This document shows, in pieces, positions 9,234 through 54,768 of a stretch of 64,000 nucleotides of DNA (the stretch's first letter is position 1; each line of letters opens with the position of its first letter). This stretch comes from an uncultured Schlesneria sp. (GTDB taxonomy: Bacteria > Planctomycetota > Planctomycetia > Planctomycetales > Planctomycetaceae). The stretch covers positions 18,181-82,180 of the forward strand of contig CAIOKO010000003.1 of the NCBI GenBank assembly GCA_903858935.1, read 5' to 3'. Under the pieces are notes generated by a model. The model worked only from the letters and a program-made list of their open reading frames with translations. It did not search any database and was not told the DNA's origin. The translations under genes were made by a program, and so were the position numbers.

Positions 9234-12233
9234 TCAGGGCGAGCTAACCGCCGATAATAGTGGGAGCCTATGCTCGATCAGGATCCACTCGCGGTTGAGT
9301 TCCATGTGCTGAAATTTCTGCTGCGTCCCTGAAGGCCAGAAGACTTCCACACTGTCCGCTGTCTGGTGGACTCCCAACCCGAAAACAAGTCGACGTTCGT
9401 TGGAGGCGTGAAATCCGTCGCCCGCCGTTAACTGCTGCGTCCATGTGTTGTTGCCGATCGAAATCCGGACGGTTGCTCCGATGGCATCGCGTGCCGAGTT
9501 TACGCAGACCAGTCGCAATCCCAGATAGTGGCCTGCGTGTTCGGTCCGATTCGTGAGCAGCGCCACTGGCTGATTAAGGTGTAAGATGCACACGTCGTCT
9601 CGGCCGTCGCGGTTCCAGTCCAGCCGGACAAGGGAACGTCCAGACCGTTTCGGTTGGAAAAATTCGCCAAGAATTTCGCTGGATACTTCGGCGAACGACC
9701 CGTCGCCTCGATTGCGGAAGAATTGTGCTGGCATGTCATATGGAACCGCGGGATCGATGGGGTCGTGGACGTGTCCATTCGTCACGATTAAATCGAGATG
9801 ACCATCCAGGTCGGCGTCGAGAAACTGGGTTCCCCATCCCAGTTGCAGGAAGCTCGGGTCGAACAGTCGTGCTTCTCGAGATCGATCGAGGAATGTTCCG
9901 TCCTTCTGCTGGGTGTAGAGATCATTCGATTGTCGATAAAAATTCGTGACAAACAGGTCGAGCCGGCCATCGTTGTTGTAATCCCCTGCCCCGATCCCCA
10001 TACAGGCTTTGGCCTGCCCCAGATGATCGAGCGCCAAACCCGAAAGCAGCGCCTGTTCATTAAATCTCGGATCATCGGGGGTCGTTGTTTGATTGAGAAA
10101 GAAGAAATTCGCAGACATATCATTGGCCACGAACAGGCTCAATCGGTGAGAACCATCGAAGTCGGCGGCCACAACTCCCAGTCCGCGTCCTTCGGCCGCA
10201 GCAAGTCCGTGGCTTTCACTCAGATCTCGAAAATGACCGTCTCCCAGATTCAAATAAAACCGGTCGGGCTCCGCCGGATAGTCGAGAGGGCTGCATCGAA
10301 CGGGGGCACGTTTGCTGCAGGGGATAAGCGGCGTTTCACCACCAAGGTATGTCACCACGTAAAGATCAGGCAAGCCGTCCTGATTAAAGTCGGCTAAAAC
10401 GCTACTGGATGTCCAGCCTCCGGCCGCTGTCTGTGCTGTTGCCGTGATGTCGGTGAACGTGCCGTCGCCGTTATTGTGATAAAACTGATTGCGTCCGATA
10501 TTTCCTATATACAGGTCGGGAAATCCATCGTTATCAAAATCGCCGGCAGTGACCCCCTGCCCGTAACCAAGATCTCGAAGCCCCGCCCGGTCGGTGACAT
10601 CTTCGAAATGTTCGTCGGAGATCGCGGTAGAATTGTCTCTAATCGTATTTCGAAATAGTCTGTCCGTCCGGGACGCATCAAACGGAGCCGGCGGCAGGTT
10701 ACCCCCTTGTGTGAAATACAGGTCTGGCAACAGGTCGCCGTCATAATCCAGGACAGCGATTCCGCCTCCATTCATTTCCGCCATCGATTCCATGTCTCCT
10801 GATCGGGCACCGTTCTGGTAGGTAAATTTGAGACCAGTGCGATCAGCATCATTTTGGAATGCGACATAATGGAGCGGTTCTTCCGTCGACAGTGGATTCC
10901 CCTTCGGACTGACAGGCCCGTTCAACGTCGGCAACGGGAAATGTGAAAGATCGATCCGGCGAGAAGGATCTTTGGCTGGAACGGTAAAATGAGTGGACGC
11001 CAATAGTCGTGGATAAAGTCGCTGAAGTGTTTCCCTCGGCCAGGCTGGATGCGGGCTTTGTTCCTTGAGCCTGAGGTGGCACCAGCCCGCGGCTTCCCAA
11101 TCGCGTCCCAGATCTTCCAGTCGACCGACAATTGATGGCAATTTTTTCGAATCGATTCCTCCCAACATCGATGTCAATTCAAAACCGAGCTCGGTTAAAC
11201 GTTGTGCACGGTCTGCAAACGGTCGCGCGAGATCAGGCTTTCCCAGTGTCACGAGGGCCTGGGAGAGTCGATAATTGGCGATCGCCAAATTGGGTTCCAG
11301 CCTGACCGCCTCCCAATAACAACGAGCTGCGGCTTCTCTCTGACCCTCTTTTTCGGCCACGACTCCCTGAGCCAGCCAGATCTCGGGATGAGTTGCTGCT
11401 GACGCTGGAATTCGACCAATTGCCTGCACAAATTCTTCGGAGGTTCCCGTTTCGGCGATGACTTGAATCAGAACCGCATGGGCCTCCAGCAAGTCTGGAT
11501 ACCTTTTCAGCACAGGCTCGAGATGCGATCTCGCGACCTGCGGCTGGTTATCTTTCCAGGCCTGTTTTGCCAGGATCAACTTTGGCAAGGGGTCGTCTGG
11601 GACCATTGCGATGCAGTGTTTGGCAAATTTCAATGCACCGTCCAGGTTCGGATGAAAGATTCCTGTGATCAACAGATAATTCGGCGTCACGATTCCGGAT
11701 CGCAGTCGTTCGAGAATGAGGCCTCGAACTTCCCAAGTCCGGCCTTCAAGCGTCATGAGATAGATCAACTGATCCAAAGCTGTCGGGTCCTGCGACGCAA
11801 TTTCCAAAGACTGCCGCAACAGACTTTCTGCCTCGGAAGCGTGTCCCGCGTCCAGTGCAATCCGCGCCAAATCTCGCAATGCCAGACTCTTGAGTTGAGG
11901 ATATCGTGTCGATACGCGCAGCAAGTATGAACTTGCCATCGCAGGATTTCTCAAGGCCACTGAGGCGGACCCTGCGACGGCCAGGGCACGGTCAGAATTT
12001 GAATTTGTTCGTAATTCATGAACTGCAAGCGTCAACGCTTGTCGGTAATCGCGTTGGCCGAGTGCCTGCTCAGCTTGAGCGACCCGAGAACTGGAAACGA
12101 CATACCAATAAAAAAGCGGTGCCAAGGCCAGAAGGCAACAAACGGAAGCACGCAGTAGGGATTTTACTCGAAATGTCGGAAATTTCATTGTAGCTGCGTG
12201 ATTCGTTACCGATCCGCGACGCCGGTCGGTCAT
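9234..12233 (-). CDS. TPR + FG-GAP repeat + ASPIC/UnbV (CRTAC1-like) protein
   Basis: N-terminal TM and TPRs, then FG-GAP repeats and C-terminal GATVRISIGNNTWTQQLTAGDGFHASNERRLVFGLG...VFWPSGTQQ. Start at ATG 12233 (MTDRRRGSV) overlaps the upstream stop as ATGA. Confidence 0.87.
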   Translation of the reverse strand: MTDRRRGSVTNHAATMKFPTFRVKSLLRASVCCLLALAPLFYWYVVSSSRVAQAEQALGQRDYRQALTLAVHELRTNSNSDRALAVAGSASVALRNPAMASSYLLRVSTRYPQLKSLALRDLARIALDAGHASEAESLLRQSLEIASQDPTALDQLIYLMTLEGRTWEVRGLILERLRSGIVTPNYLLITGIFHPNLDGALKFAKHCIAMVPDDPLPKLILAKQAWKDNQPQVARSHLEPVLKRYPDLLEAHAVLIQVIAETGTSEEFVQAIGRIPASAATHPEIWLAQGVVAEKEGQREAAARCYWEAVRLEPNLAIANYRLSQALVTLGKPDLARPFADRAQRLTELGFELTSMLGGIDSKKLPSIVGRLEDLGRDWEAAGWCHLRLKEQSPHPAWPRETLQRLYPRLLASTHFTVPAKDPSRRIDLSHFPLPTLNGPVSPKGNPLSTEEPLHYVAFQNDADRTGLKFTYQNGARSGDMESMAEMNGGGIAVLDYDGDLLPDLYFTQGGNLPPAPFDASRTDRLFRNTIRDNSTAISDEHFEDVTDRAGLRDLGYGQGVTAGDFDNDGFPDLYIGNIGRNQFYHNNGDGTFTDITATAQTAAGGWTSSSVLADFNQDGLPDLYVVTYLGGETPLIPCSKRAPVRCSPLDYPAEPDRFYLNLGDGHFRDLSESHGLAAAEGRGLGVVAADFDGSHRLSLFVANDMSANFFFLNQTTTPDDPRFNEQALLSGLALDHLGQAKACMGIGAGDYNNDGRLDLFVTNFYRQSNDLYTQQKDGTFLDRSREARLFDPSFLQLGWGTQFLDADLDGHLDLIVTNGHVHDPIDPAVPYDMPAQFFRNRGDGSFAEVSSEILGEFFQPKRSGRSLVRLDWNRDGRDDVCILHLNQPVALLTNRTEHAGHYLGLRLVCVNSARDAIGATVRISIGNNTWTQQLTAGDGFHASNERRLVFGLGVHQTADSVEVFWPSGTQQKFQHMELNREWILIEHRLPLLSAVSSP

Positions 12234-39470: not shown

Positions 39471-39851
39471 CTACCGATGTTTTATCTCTCGAAACTTCGG
39501 TGGATATTCCAGCGTGAAGACAACAACCTCTTCACCGGTCGATGTGCTGATGTCGTGATGCAGGCTCACCACGCGAACTCCGGTGGCTTCTTCGACCATG
39601 GCTTCCATCAGCGGTCGCGCCAATTCGATCAATTGGGTTCGAACTTGTTTGAGCAAGTCTCGCCCCTTTTCGGGGTGCAGGGTCTTCACCAGTTGTTGTT
39701 CCGCTGCGGTCAACACGCCGTAAAGTCGGACCACCAACAGATCGCCGATCAAGTGGGTCTGGATGTCCTTGGGGCCGCGCCCCATGTACTCCTGTTCGAA
39801 GCGCGAGATTCCCTGGCTGATCGCCGCTTCGATTTCGCCTTGTGACTTCAT
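39471..39851 (-). CDS. DUF2294-like protein
   Basis: MKSQGEIEAAISQGISRFEQEYMGRGPKDIQTHLIGDLLVVRLYGVLTAAEQQLVKTLHPEKGRDLLKQVRTQL...VVSLHHDISTSTGEEVVVFTL. Confidence 0.72.
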   Translation of the reverse strand: MKSQGEIEAAISQGISRFEQEYMGRGPKDIQTHLIGDLLVVRLYGVLTAAEQQLVKTLHPEKGRDLLKQVRTQLIELARPLMEAMVEEATGVRVVSLHHDISTSTGEEVVVFTLEYPPKFREIKHR

Positions 39852-40043
39852 CGCGATTCCTGCTTTCACTGACGACCCTGGCATTTATCGCTTATCGAGG
39901 AGGCCTGCCAGCAAGATCGTATCGAAACGGACGGCATTCTTAACGCGATTCACATTTTTGTCGCGTGGAGTTTATCAATGTTATTATGAAATAAACAGTA
40001 CAATTGCATTGCAAAATCTTCAAAGGCACGTAAAATGGACAAC

Positions 40044-40077
40044 GTTGAAAGAAAGTAATTATAAATTTTCTTTCAAC
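40044..40077. repeat. 11-bp perfect inverted repeat (hairpin)
   Basis: GTTGAAAGAAA ... TTTCTTTCAAC. Confidence 0.65.
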
Positions 40078-40080
40078 ATC

Positions 40081-40190
40081 GATCGGAAAACTAATTAAAA
40101 AGCAGCTCGGCCGGTGCCGGGAGGCTCGTTATGAAGTAAGCCGACGCGATGGAATACCTCAAGGTGTTCTGCCGCGTCGGCTTTTTTTTT
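40081..40190 (+). ncRNA. Putative structured RNA element A ending in a Rho-independent-like terminator
   Basis: GATCGGAAAAC ... GTAAGCCGACGCG-atg-GAATACCT-ca-AGGTGTTC-tgc-CGCGTCGGCTTTTTTTTT; related to element B at 53229. Confidence 0.5.
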
Positions 40191-40295
40191 GACCTGTGCT
40201 TCCCTCTCCCCTCCCTGCTTTGCCTTTGATCCGGAATTCACGAGTGGAATGTCTGCTCAATCATCTTTTGGATCTCTTCGATGGAGTTGGTCGCG

Positions 40296-40499
40296 ATGCG
40301 TCGCTTTATGACTGGTGGTGACTGGAATGTGCGGCCCAATGACGTCGATTTTCTGCAACCCGTCTTTCGACGTATCTCGATCGCGCTTGCCATTGCGGGA
40401 ATCTTGTGTCTGAGCATGGCTTTTGGCAATGAGCCCGTCGCGAACAAGGATCCGAGTCGCTGTTCCGGGTTCGAATACACGAAAACGCGAACACTTTAG
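40296..40499 (+). CDS. Small hypothetical protein with one hydrophobic segment
   Basis: MRRFMTGGDWNVRPNDVDFLQPVFRRISIALAIAGILCLSMAFGNEPV; ORF only. Confidence 0.35.
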   Translation: MRRFMTGGDWNVRPNDVDFLQPVFRRISIALAIAGILCLSMAFGNEPVANKDPSRCSGFEYTKTRTL

Positions 40500-40511
40500 C
40501 AGGAACTGATT

Positions 40512-40892
40512 ATGCGACGTCGATTTTACTTAGCGCTCATGGCTTTCAGTCTTATTTCCACGATCCCGTCGGCGAATAAAGCGCATGGCTACGGTCCTGG
40601 CGTGCGAATATCAATCGGACCTCGTGGATACAACAACGGATACGGCCAGGGATCGTACGGCGGATATGGACAGGGAAATCATGCGAACGGTCCGGGGTTT
40701 AGCGGTGGATATGGAAATGGAAATGGAAGCTATGGGTACTCGGGTTATGGAAACGGTCCCTATGGATACGGCGATACCGAAGCAGGCTATTACGATCGAT
40801 CTGGGGCCTACGGATATTACGGACCGGCTTATTCACCTGTTTTTAGCCCATACGGATTCGGAATTTATAGCTCGTTCACGAACGGTTGGTAA
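40512..40892 (+). CDS. Exported Gly/Tyr-rich low-complexity protein
   Basis: MRRRFYLALMAFSLISTIPSANKAHG signal, then GYGQGSYGGYGQGN...GYSGYGNGPYGYG; AGGAACTG before ATG. Confidence 0.6.
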   Translation: MRRRFYLALMAFSLISTIPSANKAHGYGPGVRISIGPRGYNNGYGQGSYGGYGQGNHANGPGFSGGYGNGNGSYGYSGYGNGPYGYGDTEAGYYDRSGAYGYYGPAYSPVFSPYGFGIYSSFTNGW

Positions 40893-40949: not shown

Positions 40950-41342
40950 ATGGACCGTCCAAACTTTATTATTGCACAGCGAATTGCTCAGGCAGCCAGC
41001 ACCTTGGAACAGCAACGAACTGGCCGCTTGCCGGGTTCGGTGACAGTCGTTTTGAGTGATGACTTTCTGGTTGTCACTCTCCATGAGAACATGACACTTG
41101 CCGAGAAGGCGTTGTCGAGGACGCAAGCGGGAGCGGCTCAAGTCCAGCATTTTCACAAAGAACTTTTTTCCAACTCGTCTGACCCGCTTCGGTTGGAAAT
41201 CAATCGAATTTCCGGACGGCTGGTGCGGGAAGCGGCAACGGAAATCGAGCCGAAATCTGGGTCAGTTGTCCATGCTTTTACGACCGGCACGATGGTGCAA
41301 GTGTTTTTGCTCACTGACGACGCTCCATCAAAAGAGGCGTGA
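40950..41342 (+). CDS. DUF2294-like protein (paralogue of 39471-39851)
   Basis: IAQRIAQAASTLEQQRTGRLPGSVTVVLSDDFLVVTLHENMTLAEKALSRTQAGAAQVQHFHKELF... Confidence 0.65.
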   Translation: MDRPNFIIAQRIAQAASTLEQQRTGRLPGSVTVVLSDDFLVVTLHENMTLAEKALSRTQAGAAQVQHFHKELFSNSSDPLRLEINRISGRLVREAATEIEPKSGSVVHAFTTGTMVQVFLLTDDAPSKEA

Positions 41343-52954: not shown

Positions 52955-53228
52955 CGGTTATGCCGTGCATTTCGATGCCGGCGTGATTAATGCGTGGAAT
53001 TCATTTATTAAACAGAAAAGATTCAACGTCATCGCTAAAAACCGACGATCTCGACCGGTGGTTGACACGGTAACCCGCGATGAATCGTGCCGATCGCAGC
53101 GAAGGATTGCGCAGATTTAAAAGTGGCAAGGCTGGGCGACGGCCGATTACTTCTTACTTTTGTGTCTCGAATCGTTCGATCTTTGGCGCGACGTTTGGGC
53201 TTGGAATAATTCACAGCCCTGTCGTTTT

Positions 53229-53334
53229 GATCGGAAAACAGAATAGAGAACTGCCGCTTAAAGCGCGCTCTTCATTATTACGTAAGCCGACGAGGGGAAA
53301 TGTCTTCAGACAATGGACCTTGTCGGCTTTTTCT
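53229..53334 (+). ncRNA. Putative structured RNA element B ending in a Rho-independent-like terminator (related to element A at 40081)
   Basis: GATCGGAAAAC ... GTAAGCCGACGAGG ... TGTCttcaGACA ... CCTTGTCGGCTTTTTCTTT. Confidence 0.5.
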
Positions 53335-53451
53335 TTCTGGCGGCGTATCACGGACGCCACCTTGATGCTGTAACGTCGTCCGTGAGATGTGTGGCGGGCA
53401 TTTCTCGGACGTTCCACCTCGAGGCGTCGTGAGCATTTAGCGGAGGTCGAT

Positions 53452-54768
53452 GTGCAATTTGCTGTTCCTGCCACCCCTTCGTGTCGGATTTCTTCAGCGC
53501 CAGTTCGTCTGCACGGGTTGGACGCCTTACGCGGAATTGCCGCCGTCTTTGTCGTACTCTTGCACGCCGGAATTCCTTATATGACAGCCCCCCTGTCATA
53601 TCTTGTCTGGCCCTCCCGCGATGCCCACCCCTGCCCCGTCGTTGACGGGCTGACATGGTGTACCGAGTGTTTTCTCATGCCGCTGTTCTTCGTTCTGGCT
53701 GGTTTCTTCTCTCAGGGAATTCTGATTTCGCGCGGAGAACGGAAATTCATTGAGGGACGAACACACCGCCTGATGGTGACTCAGTTCTTTGCCGGACCAT
53801 TGGTCATGCTGCCATGCCTGGGAATCTGGTCACTCGGCTGGATCGGTGATGGATTGTTCGTTCCCAAAAGTTTCATGAATTGGGGAATGCCGCGAGAACT
53901 TGAATCAGAACTCTATGGATTCGGGCACTTCTGGTTTCTCAATTATCTTTACACATATTGCCTGATTCTGTGTGGTGGCAGCTGGTTGACCAAACGTATC
54001 AGCGGGCCAAAGGTGGTCGAAGCCGACCGTCCGTCGCCTGGATTTCTGGCAATTGATCATCTGATGGTTTCCGTCTGGAAGCCGCTACTCCCCGCGATAC
54101 CCTGTGCGCTGGTCTTATTTTATGACCCGCGAATCGTGCTCGGCTTTTATCAGACATTTCTGCCCGTTCTTTCAAAGCTGGTCTATTACGCGATTTATTT
54201 CTTCGTCGGCGTCGCACTTTACCGACATCGCGCCGCGCTGCATCTGCACGCTCGATTCGGCAAGTCGTATATCGCGATTGCCAGTCTGCTTTTTGCCGTC
54301 AGCTTACCGATGATTCACGAACATCAGGTATCGCAATTGACCGGTGGCCGACTGGCGTTGATGGTGGGGTTGCTGGCCCTGTTCGCCTGGTACACCACTT
54401 TCGGTCTGCTGGCCATTTCCCTGCGAACAAAGCATGGCGAGAACTCGATCCTGCGTTATCTCGCTGAGGCTTCCTTCTGGGTCTATATCGTTCATTTGCC
54501 GTTCGTAGGATTGACGCACGTGGCAATTGCCCAGATGGCCGTTCCGACGATCGCCAAATTTCTGCTGGCGGGCTTAATCCCGTTATCGATTTCGCTGGTG
54601 AGTTATCAGATCTTCGTGCGAGAAAAATGGCTCGGACGGTTTTTAGACGGACGTGGCCAGCGAGTTAAGCCCGTTACAAACGTTTTGGCGGCAACGGACG
54701 TGCATCGTCCGGTGAAAGCACCCCATTTTGCGATTTCCGTTGCAAACAAAGCAAGAAGCGGTGTGTGA
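53452..54768 (+). CDS. Acyltransferase family 3 / OpgC-like membrane protein
   Basis: LHGLDALRGIAAVFVVLLHAGIPYM ... LVWPSRDAHPCPVVDGLTWCTECFLMPLFFVLAGFFSQ; GTG start 53452 with GGAGG upstream. Confidence 0.85.
   Translation: MQFAVPATPSCRISSAPVRLHGLDALRGIAAVFVVLLHAGIPYMTAPLSYLVWPSRDAHPCPVVDGLTWCTECFLMPLFFVLAGFFSQGILISRGERKFIEGRTHRLMVTQFFAGPLVMLPCLGIWSLGWIGDGLFVPKSFMNWGMPRELESELYGFGHFWFLNYLYTYCLILCGGSWLTKRISGPKVVEADRPSPGFLAIDHLMVSVWKPLLPAIPCALVLFYDPRIVLGFYQTFLPVLSKLVYYAIYFFVGVALYRHRAALHLHARFGKSYIAIASLLFAVSLPMIHEHQVSQLTGGRLALMVGLLALFAWYTTFGLLAISLRTKHGENSILRYLAEASFWVYIVHLPFVGLTHVAIAQMAVPTIAKFLLAGLIPLSISLVSYQIFVREKWLGRFLDGRGQRVKPVTNVLAATDVHRPVKAPHFAISVANKARSGV

Follow-up and report, generated by a model that had tools for sequence, protein, structure and literature searches.

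The window analysed here is a stretch of 64,000 nucleotides (nt) from the genome of an uncultured Schlesneria sp. (assembly GCA_903858935.1, contig CAIOKO010000003.1), whose encoded proteins include the planctomycete types PSD1, PSCyt1, PSCyt2, and DUF1501. It carries two related RNA elements, A and B, on either side of a cassette of genes for MpsC, CsbD-like, ferritin-like, YflT, and AI-2E transporter proteins; the leader described below is found only at A and B. An earlier reading of the DNA (the original prediction) had called the two a conserved RNA, either a small RNA (sRNA) or a 5' regulatory element, and not a plain terminator. The strings, offsets, stems, and T9 tract it claimed are all present where it placed them. 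Element A starts with GATCGGAAAAC at 40081, followed by AAGCCGACGCG at 40138 (an offset of 57), CGCGTCGGCTT at 40173-40183, and T9 at 40182-40190, with GAATACC/GGTGTTC as its inner stem; element B has GATCGGAAAAC at 53229, AAGCCGAC at 53284 (offset 55), GTCGGCTTTTT at 53322, and an inner stem unlike that of A. Together with a hairpin on its 5' side, A folds at -60.2 kcal/mol with a z-score of -6.8 against dinucleotide shuffles, and the corresponding z-score for B is -3.5; the folds are thus not due to chance. Under the second of two covariance models (model R2), whose training copies include both elements, A and B score 111 and 59.6 bits, respectively, and R2 found no further copies in the window other than antisense echoes of these two. 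The features are as follows.

40009 to 40036, plus strand: putative sigma70-like promoter of leader A, TTGCAA-16-TAAAAT (consensus scan; de novo motif upstream of copies)
40045 to 40076, plus strand: 5' hairpin of leader A, TTGAAAGAAAGT / ATTTTCTTTCAA, varying in sequence among copies (fold; a comparable hairpin precedes copy C)
40081 to 40190, plus strand: element A, the full conserved leader RNA with terminator and U tract (model R2; alignments)
40083 to 40086, plus strand: putative 5' antiterminator strand UCGG, partner 40141-40144 (pair counts; folding of the isolated segment)
40090 to 40137, plus strand: imperfect hairpin ACU-[3x3]-UAA-[2x2]-AGC-[2x2]-CUCGG..CCGGG (covariation)
40138 to 40190, plus strand: intrinsic terminator AAGCCGACGCG..CGCGTCGGCTT plus T9 (sequence, fold, covariation)
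40141 to 40144, plus strand: CCGA, the putative switching strand common to antiterminator and terminator (GG-CC with the 5' strand in at least 78 of 79 independent copies)
40281 to 40496, plus strand: first open reading frame (ORF) after A, 72 amino acids, no Pfam match; related ORFs lie behind A-like leaders in two sister genomes (a cluster of three)
40512 to 40892, plus strand: second ORF after A, 126 amino acids, no Pfam match
40950 to 41342, plus strand: MpsC (DUF2294) protein downstream of A (Pfam E 1e-18)
53183 to 53210, plus strand: possible weak promoter of leader B, TTGGCG-16-AATAAT (consensus scan only)
53229 to 53337, plus strand: element B, a divergent copy of the same leader RNA (model R2)
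53389 to 54768, plus strand: acyltransferase-3 family membrane protein under leader B (Pfam E 6.7e-24)

Divergent MpsC genes thus flank element A, the second lying at 39471-39884 on the minus strand. A counterpart of B with the same kind of downstream gene was found at L097:14241-14346.

The literal pattern of the original prediction has three occurrences in the genome (7.93 Mb), and its reversed control has no match; the third pattern copy (C) and further copies D and E lie on another contig of the genome. The search proposed originally, with a covariance model seeded from A and B, was run across planctomycete genomes with C-E added to the seed, and it recovered a multi-copy family. This first model, from the five copies A-E, found about 18 strong copies in the present genome and detected the element in 21 of 59 relatives, with at most 48 matches per genome, or an estimated 40 or so once antisense echoes had been removed (low-scoring matches on the opposite strand arise as echoes from the palindromic terminator and were dropped by overlap). 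Model R2 was then built from 127 copies of related genomes (the first set, including A and B), and 79 further copies, from genomes outside model building in which the same families were sought with the model, form the independent set. A scan with R2 of 393 genomes from across the phylum gave at least 15 with the element, a lower bound as few candidates were scored per genome; within the class, 69 of 296 genomes, belonging to 45 of 154 genera, have it. The distribution is patchy, certain species lacking the element inside a genus that has it. Variants with a GGAAGACU..AGUAAGCC core occur in AT-rich genomes of distant families of the phylum (L159, L160, L166), two of the three in tandem copies. 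Plasmid records contained no match to A. Beside copies C-E there are two similar stretches of ~170 bp (L003:825-1005 and L003:1895-2070); they have long ends in inverted orientation (GTAGCCATCATCGC..GCGATGATGGCTAC) and may be a small repeat, either mobile or structured. A transfer-messenger RNA (tmRNA) gene (RF00023) lies near another copy (L156:2261-2638, minus strand).

The consensus is YCGGAWGACU-n3-UAA-n2-RGC-A-n-CCCGG-loop-CCGGG-n-G-GCY-n2-UUA-n3-AGU-AA-GCCGACGYG-[variable stem]-CRCGUCGGC-U6+. Across the 127 copies its 33 pairs are paired in 92.7% of cells, and at 30 of the 33 at least one sequence shows a two-sided change; such changes number 528 cells, compared with 128 after shuffling and 37-122 in slid controls. 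The independent copies behave in the same way: 94.5% of cells are paired, 30 of 33 pairs covary, and 371 cells are changed on both sides versus 81 when shuffled. Both alignments were fitted to the model, so the counts lean its way, and the shuffles and slides still fall far below them. The base of the terminator (GCCGA) is nearly invariant while the remainder of its stem is free to vary, with compensatory changes, and the terminal loop of the main hairpin is conserved in neither sequence nor length. Covariation of the whole structure, in about 128 copies from related genomes and the 79 independent ones, bears out the claim of a conserved RNA that is not a plain terminator; a lack of further genomic copies with compensatory changes, which had been named as what would count against that claim, was looked for, and many covarying copies were found instead.

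The element lies in front of genes. The nearest downstream ORF runs in the direction of the element in 125 of the 127 first-set copies (median distance 76 nt) and in 70 of 78 of the independent set (median 51 nt), where the eight opposite-strand calls may partly be artefacts, the ORF caller having been trained on first-set loci; the strand of the upstream gene is mixed (51 plus and 71 minus in the first set; 37 plus and 35 minus among the independent copies). A de novo motif of the first set, TTGCnn-N16-gTAnnAT, begins ~72 nt before the element (log-likelihood 476 vs. 104 when shuffled), from which a promoter at the copies is inferred. Such a layout, with a regulated terminator behind a promoter of constitutive type, is consistent with control at elongation. 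The promoter motif and the strong terminator would equally suit a free sRNA family, the terminated product being a discrete RNA of ~150 nt, but the co-directional genes at short spacing, set against the mixed upstream strands, and a competing antiterminator (below) for which a free sRNA would have no need, make this very improbable. Of the two identities first offered, therefore, it is the 5' element that the positions support and the sRNA that they do not. We give still less credence, indeed almost none, to simple terminators for the genes upstream or to a terminator-bearing mobile repeat. Several near-identical copies within a single genome and copies in viral contigs are what a mobile repeat might produce; however, over half of the first-set copies have an upstream gene that points away from them, the terminator is preceded by another hairpin that covaries, and the same kind of gene is preceded by similar leaders in several genomes. 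The covariation contradicts this explanation.

The 125 downstream ORFs fall into 57 unrelated clusters. Recurrent families are BON/OsmY-like (8), MpsC (7), KaiC, DUF3309, lmo0937/DUF5670, response regulators, and PEP-CTERM (5 each), ice-binding-like proteins, sensor kinases, and type III polyketide synthases (4 each), and MCRA (3). In other families of the class the commonest first gene is that for MpsC, behind ~23 of the 79 independent copies. Dozens of stress and surface genes, unrelated to one another, are probably turned on and off jointly by the leader. KaiC-like ATPase genes stand behind the leader in five genomes of the genus (L116, L080, L098, L091, L066), often together with two short ORFs.

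A pairing overlooked by the original prediction, between the 5' end of the element and the terminator arm, supplies a mechanism. The 5' (U)CGG is complementary to CCG(A) of the arm, and its pairing extends the imperfect hairpin by way of a 3x3 purine-rich loop (AWG/AAG). As CCG(A) is used by both the 5' CGG and the terminator, the antiterminator hairpin and the terminator are mutually exclusive. The GG-CC of the competing pairing is kept in 78-79 of the 79 independent copies, and four leaders of type III polyketide synthase genes have A-U in place of G-C at one step (UCAG with CUGG). Folded in isolation, the segment takes the antiterminator form (mean -22 kcal/mol) in 119 of the 127 copies; the terminator, at -32.6 kcal/mol, is the stabler of the two in 98%. 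The element has what attenuators have in general, namely two exclusive conserved pairings, one of them an intrinsic terminator, and a location within the 5' leader of a gene that runs in its own direction. A leader peptide was ruled out by inspection: the AUG of GGAUGAC is not conserved, GGAAG and GGACG being common.

Transcription would start at the sigma70-like promoter, whose -35 lies ~70 nt upstream of the element. In the emerging RNA the 5' (U)CGG would pair with CCG(A) to give a long antiterminator hairpin with its purine-rich internal loop (GG-AWG-ACU / AGU-AAG-CC); without help, the stabler GUCGGC half of the terminator would then capture CCGA and stop transcription before the gene. 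A signal holding the first hairpin would lead to read-through, and one freeing its 5' strand to termination. That the first hairpin forms early and is displaced later by the terminator unless held is what the energies and the order of transcription lead us to expect. We read the element as a 5' leader RNA that serves a large regulon by attenuating transcription, with a probability of roughly three in four, as judged from comparison of sequences. By that comparison we take as established the structure, both mutually exclusive pairings, and the position as a leader, whereas termination as the default and a regulated choice between the folds are inferred. Two observations weigh against the attenuator: two-sided change at the competing pairing is seen only in the four orthologous polyketide synthase leaders, where the replacement was probably a single event, and the AT-rich copies of distant families retain just the GG-CC core.

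As for what might run the switch, the viral copies pointed to a candidate. In three large viral contigs of 112-192 kb (L178, L182 at 10172-10521, and L188), the element lies 25 nt upstream of a gene for a 75-amino-acid CsrA homologue; the element regions of the three score identically, and the contigs look like one phage lineage. In a fourth viral contig, with terminase and integrase genes, the leader is upstream of an MpsC gene (L174:2306-2937). The viral arrangement of leader and CsrA led us to search the flanks of all elements for csrA. In the first set, six csrA genes are downstream of elements. The independent set yielded 12 in 333 kb of flanks, all on the same strand as the element and at distances of 38-671 nt on its downstream side; the usual order is leader-mpsC-csrA. 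With roughly ten csrA genes per 7 Mb, we estimate the expected number at less than 0.1. A six-residue insertion between the first two strands is present in 16 of the 18 linked CsrA proteins (the viral ones counted once, those of L310 and L274 judged by eye), and in none of the unlinked CsrA proteins sampled, a sample drawn from best-scoring matches and hence one that favours ordinary CsrA. In Legionella, CsrA can act by stabilising an anti-terminator (PMC5338858), and at pgaA it can promote termination (PMC7652899). The insertion-type paralogue that recurs in operons under the leader is our leading candidate for a trans-acting factor, at somewhat under even odds.

Several observations speak against this candidate. 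Two of the linked proteins belong to the ordinary type. The leader's GGA is intact in 117 of 130 and ~73 of 79 copies and lost in the other 13 and ~6, mostly with the GG-CC or a compensated pairing retained, and neither the 5' hairpin region nor the whole element is enriched in GGA. The site is UCGGAWG in a linker or internal loop, with no ANGGAN loop in a short hairpin. There are 2-16 CsrA proteins per planctomycete genome, in every one of the 59 related genomes searched (10 in the present one), and their number fails to separate genomes with the element from those without it; nor is there a csrA gene within the sampled flanks of the copies in this genome. The GGA losses, the non-ANGGAN context, and this last point are why the attenuator is judged separately from the CsrA step. 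The idea that terminated leaders act as a sponge titrating CsrA was rejected, there being no GGA excess beyond the one leader site; AnGGA is in excess in the stretch from the terminator to the start codon, where it resembles the Shine-Dalgarno sequence.

Another RNA-binding protein, or else RNA polymerase or NusA through some property of its own, might run the switch instead, with insertion-type CsrA as a co-regulated target or acting downstream. Of the classical antitermination factors, CAT_RBD (BglG/LicT/SacY) was found in 0 of 59 genomes, with positive controls detected in four. No ANTAR protein was found in G000 (this genome), G001, G004, or G005, all with high copy numbers, by a search that detected no control genome but did detect 11 of the 59 relatives; G013 and G022, also copy-rich, have one each, so ANTAR as a general effector is ruled out only by its absence from the other copy-rich genomes. 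Those absences and the lack of a conserved CsrA-type GGA hairpin loop are on the side of a different factor. However, no alternative protein was found, CsrA is the RNA-binding protein repeatedly linked to the leader, and we judge this explanation unlikely. A small-molecule riboswitch, in which the imperfect hairpin and its AWG/AAG loop would be an aptamer, a metabolite, ion, or second messenger would stabilise the antiterminator, and csrA would be one target among others, is possible but doubtful. Its anatomy would be that of crcB and pfl, with an aptamer overlapping the terminator (PMC2864571), and it would suit the many unrelated target genes, but few unpaired bases are conserved, the terminal loop and most of the internal ones are free to vary, and the linkage to csrA is left unexplained.

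Many planctomycete genes are of unknown control, and the leader delimits a regulon recognisable from sequence alone. It brings uncharacterised families (MpsC, DUF3309, lmo0937-type, BON, KaiC-like, PEP-CTERM) under one likely signal, and the analysis names a testable candidate protein, the CsrA paralogue. We suggest, with confidence distinctly below even, that the insertion-bearing paralogue and the leader make up a new two-part system in which the protein controls intrinsic termination before dozens of unrelated stress and surface genes in planctomycetes, one taken over by large phages that carry the leader together with the CsrA homologue. If CsrA does act on an intrinsic terminator common to many genes, the known scope of this global regulator would be widened, and the viral copies would be a case of phages using a host stress switch.

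The kind of device, a leader choosing between terminator and antiterminator, is already known. The RNA itself appears to be previously unlisted. At the gathering threshold, no Rfam 15 family matched in the window, and at relaxed E-values there were only chance-level matches at the element and in seven divergent loci (the tmRNA elsewhere in L156 aside); neither Rfam 15 nor the searched literature describes it, with the proviso that the Rhodopirellula-1 motif, set beside it from a table row only, could overlap this leader. That row lists a candidate cis-regulatory motif of Planctomycetes and Proteobacteria that is ambiguous as an RNA and has no Rfam accession there (PMC2864571, Table 1).

Among the closest systems already described are the ribonucleic antiterminator (RAT) leaders of BglG/LicT/SacY, and the hairpin of the present leader is longer than the RAT element. 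In RAT leaders, too, an antiterminator overlaps and excludes an intrinsic terminator in the 5' leader (PMC3369931), but CAT_RBD is absent from all 59 genomes searched here. ANTAR-responsive leaders (EutV, NasR, AmiR) likewise have a hairpin overlapping the terminator and serve several operons (PMC3369931); their hexanucleotide terminal loops (A1, G4) are not present in the leader RNA. The crcB and pfl riboswitches, where a conserved structure overlaps the terminator and binding would raise expression (PMC2864571), share that anatomy but gave no model match here. In the CsrA/RsmA leaders of pgaA and of Legionella gap and thi, CsrA can remodel the RNA and shift termination (PMC7652899, PMC5338858), and the likeness lies in a near-invariant GG, mostly GGA, which here is single-stranded in the terminator form. 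Unlike those leaders, the present one has a UCGGAWG site, is a single leader for dozens of genes, has an insertion-type CsrA as its candidate partner, and ends in intrinsic rather than Rho-dependent termination.
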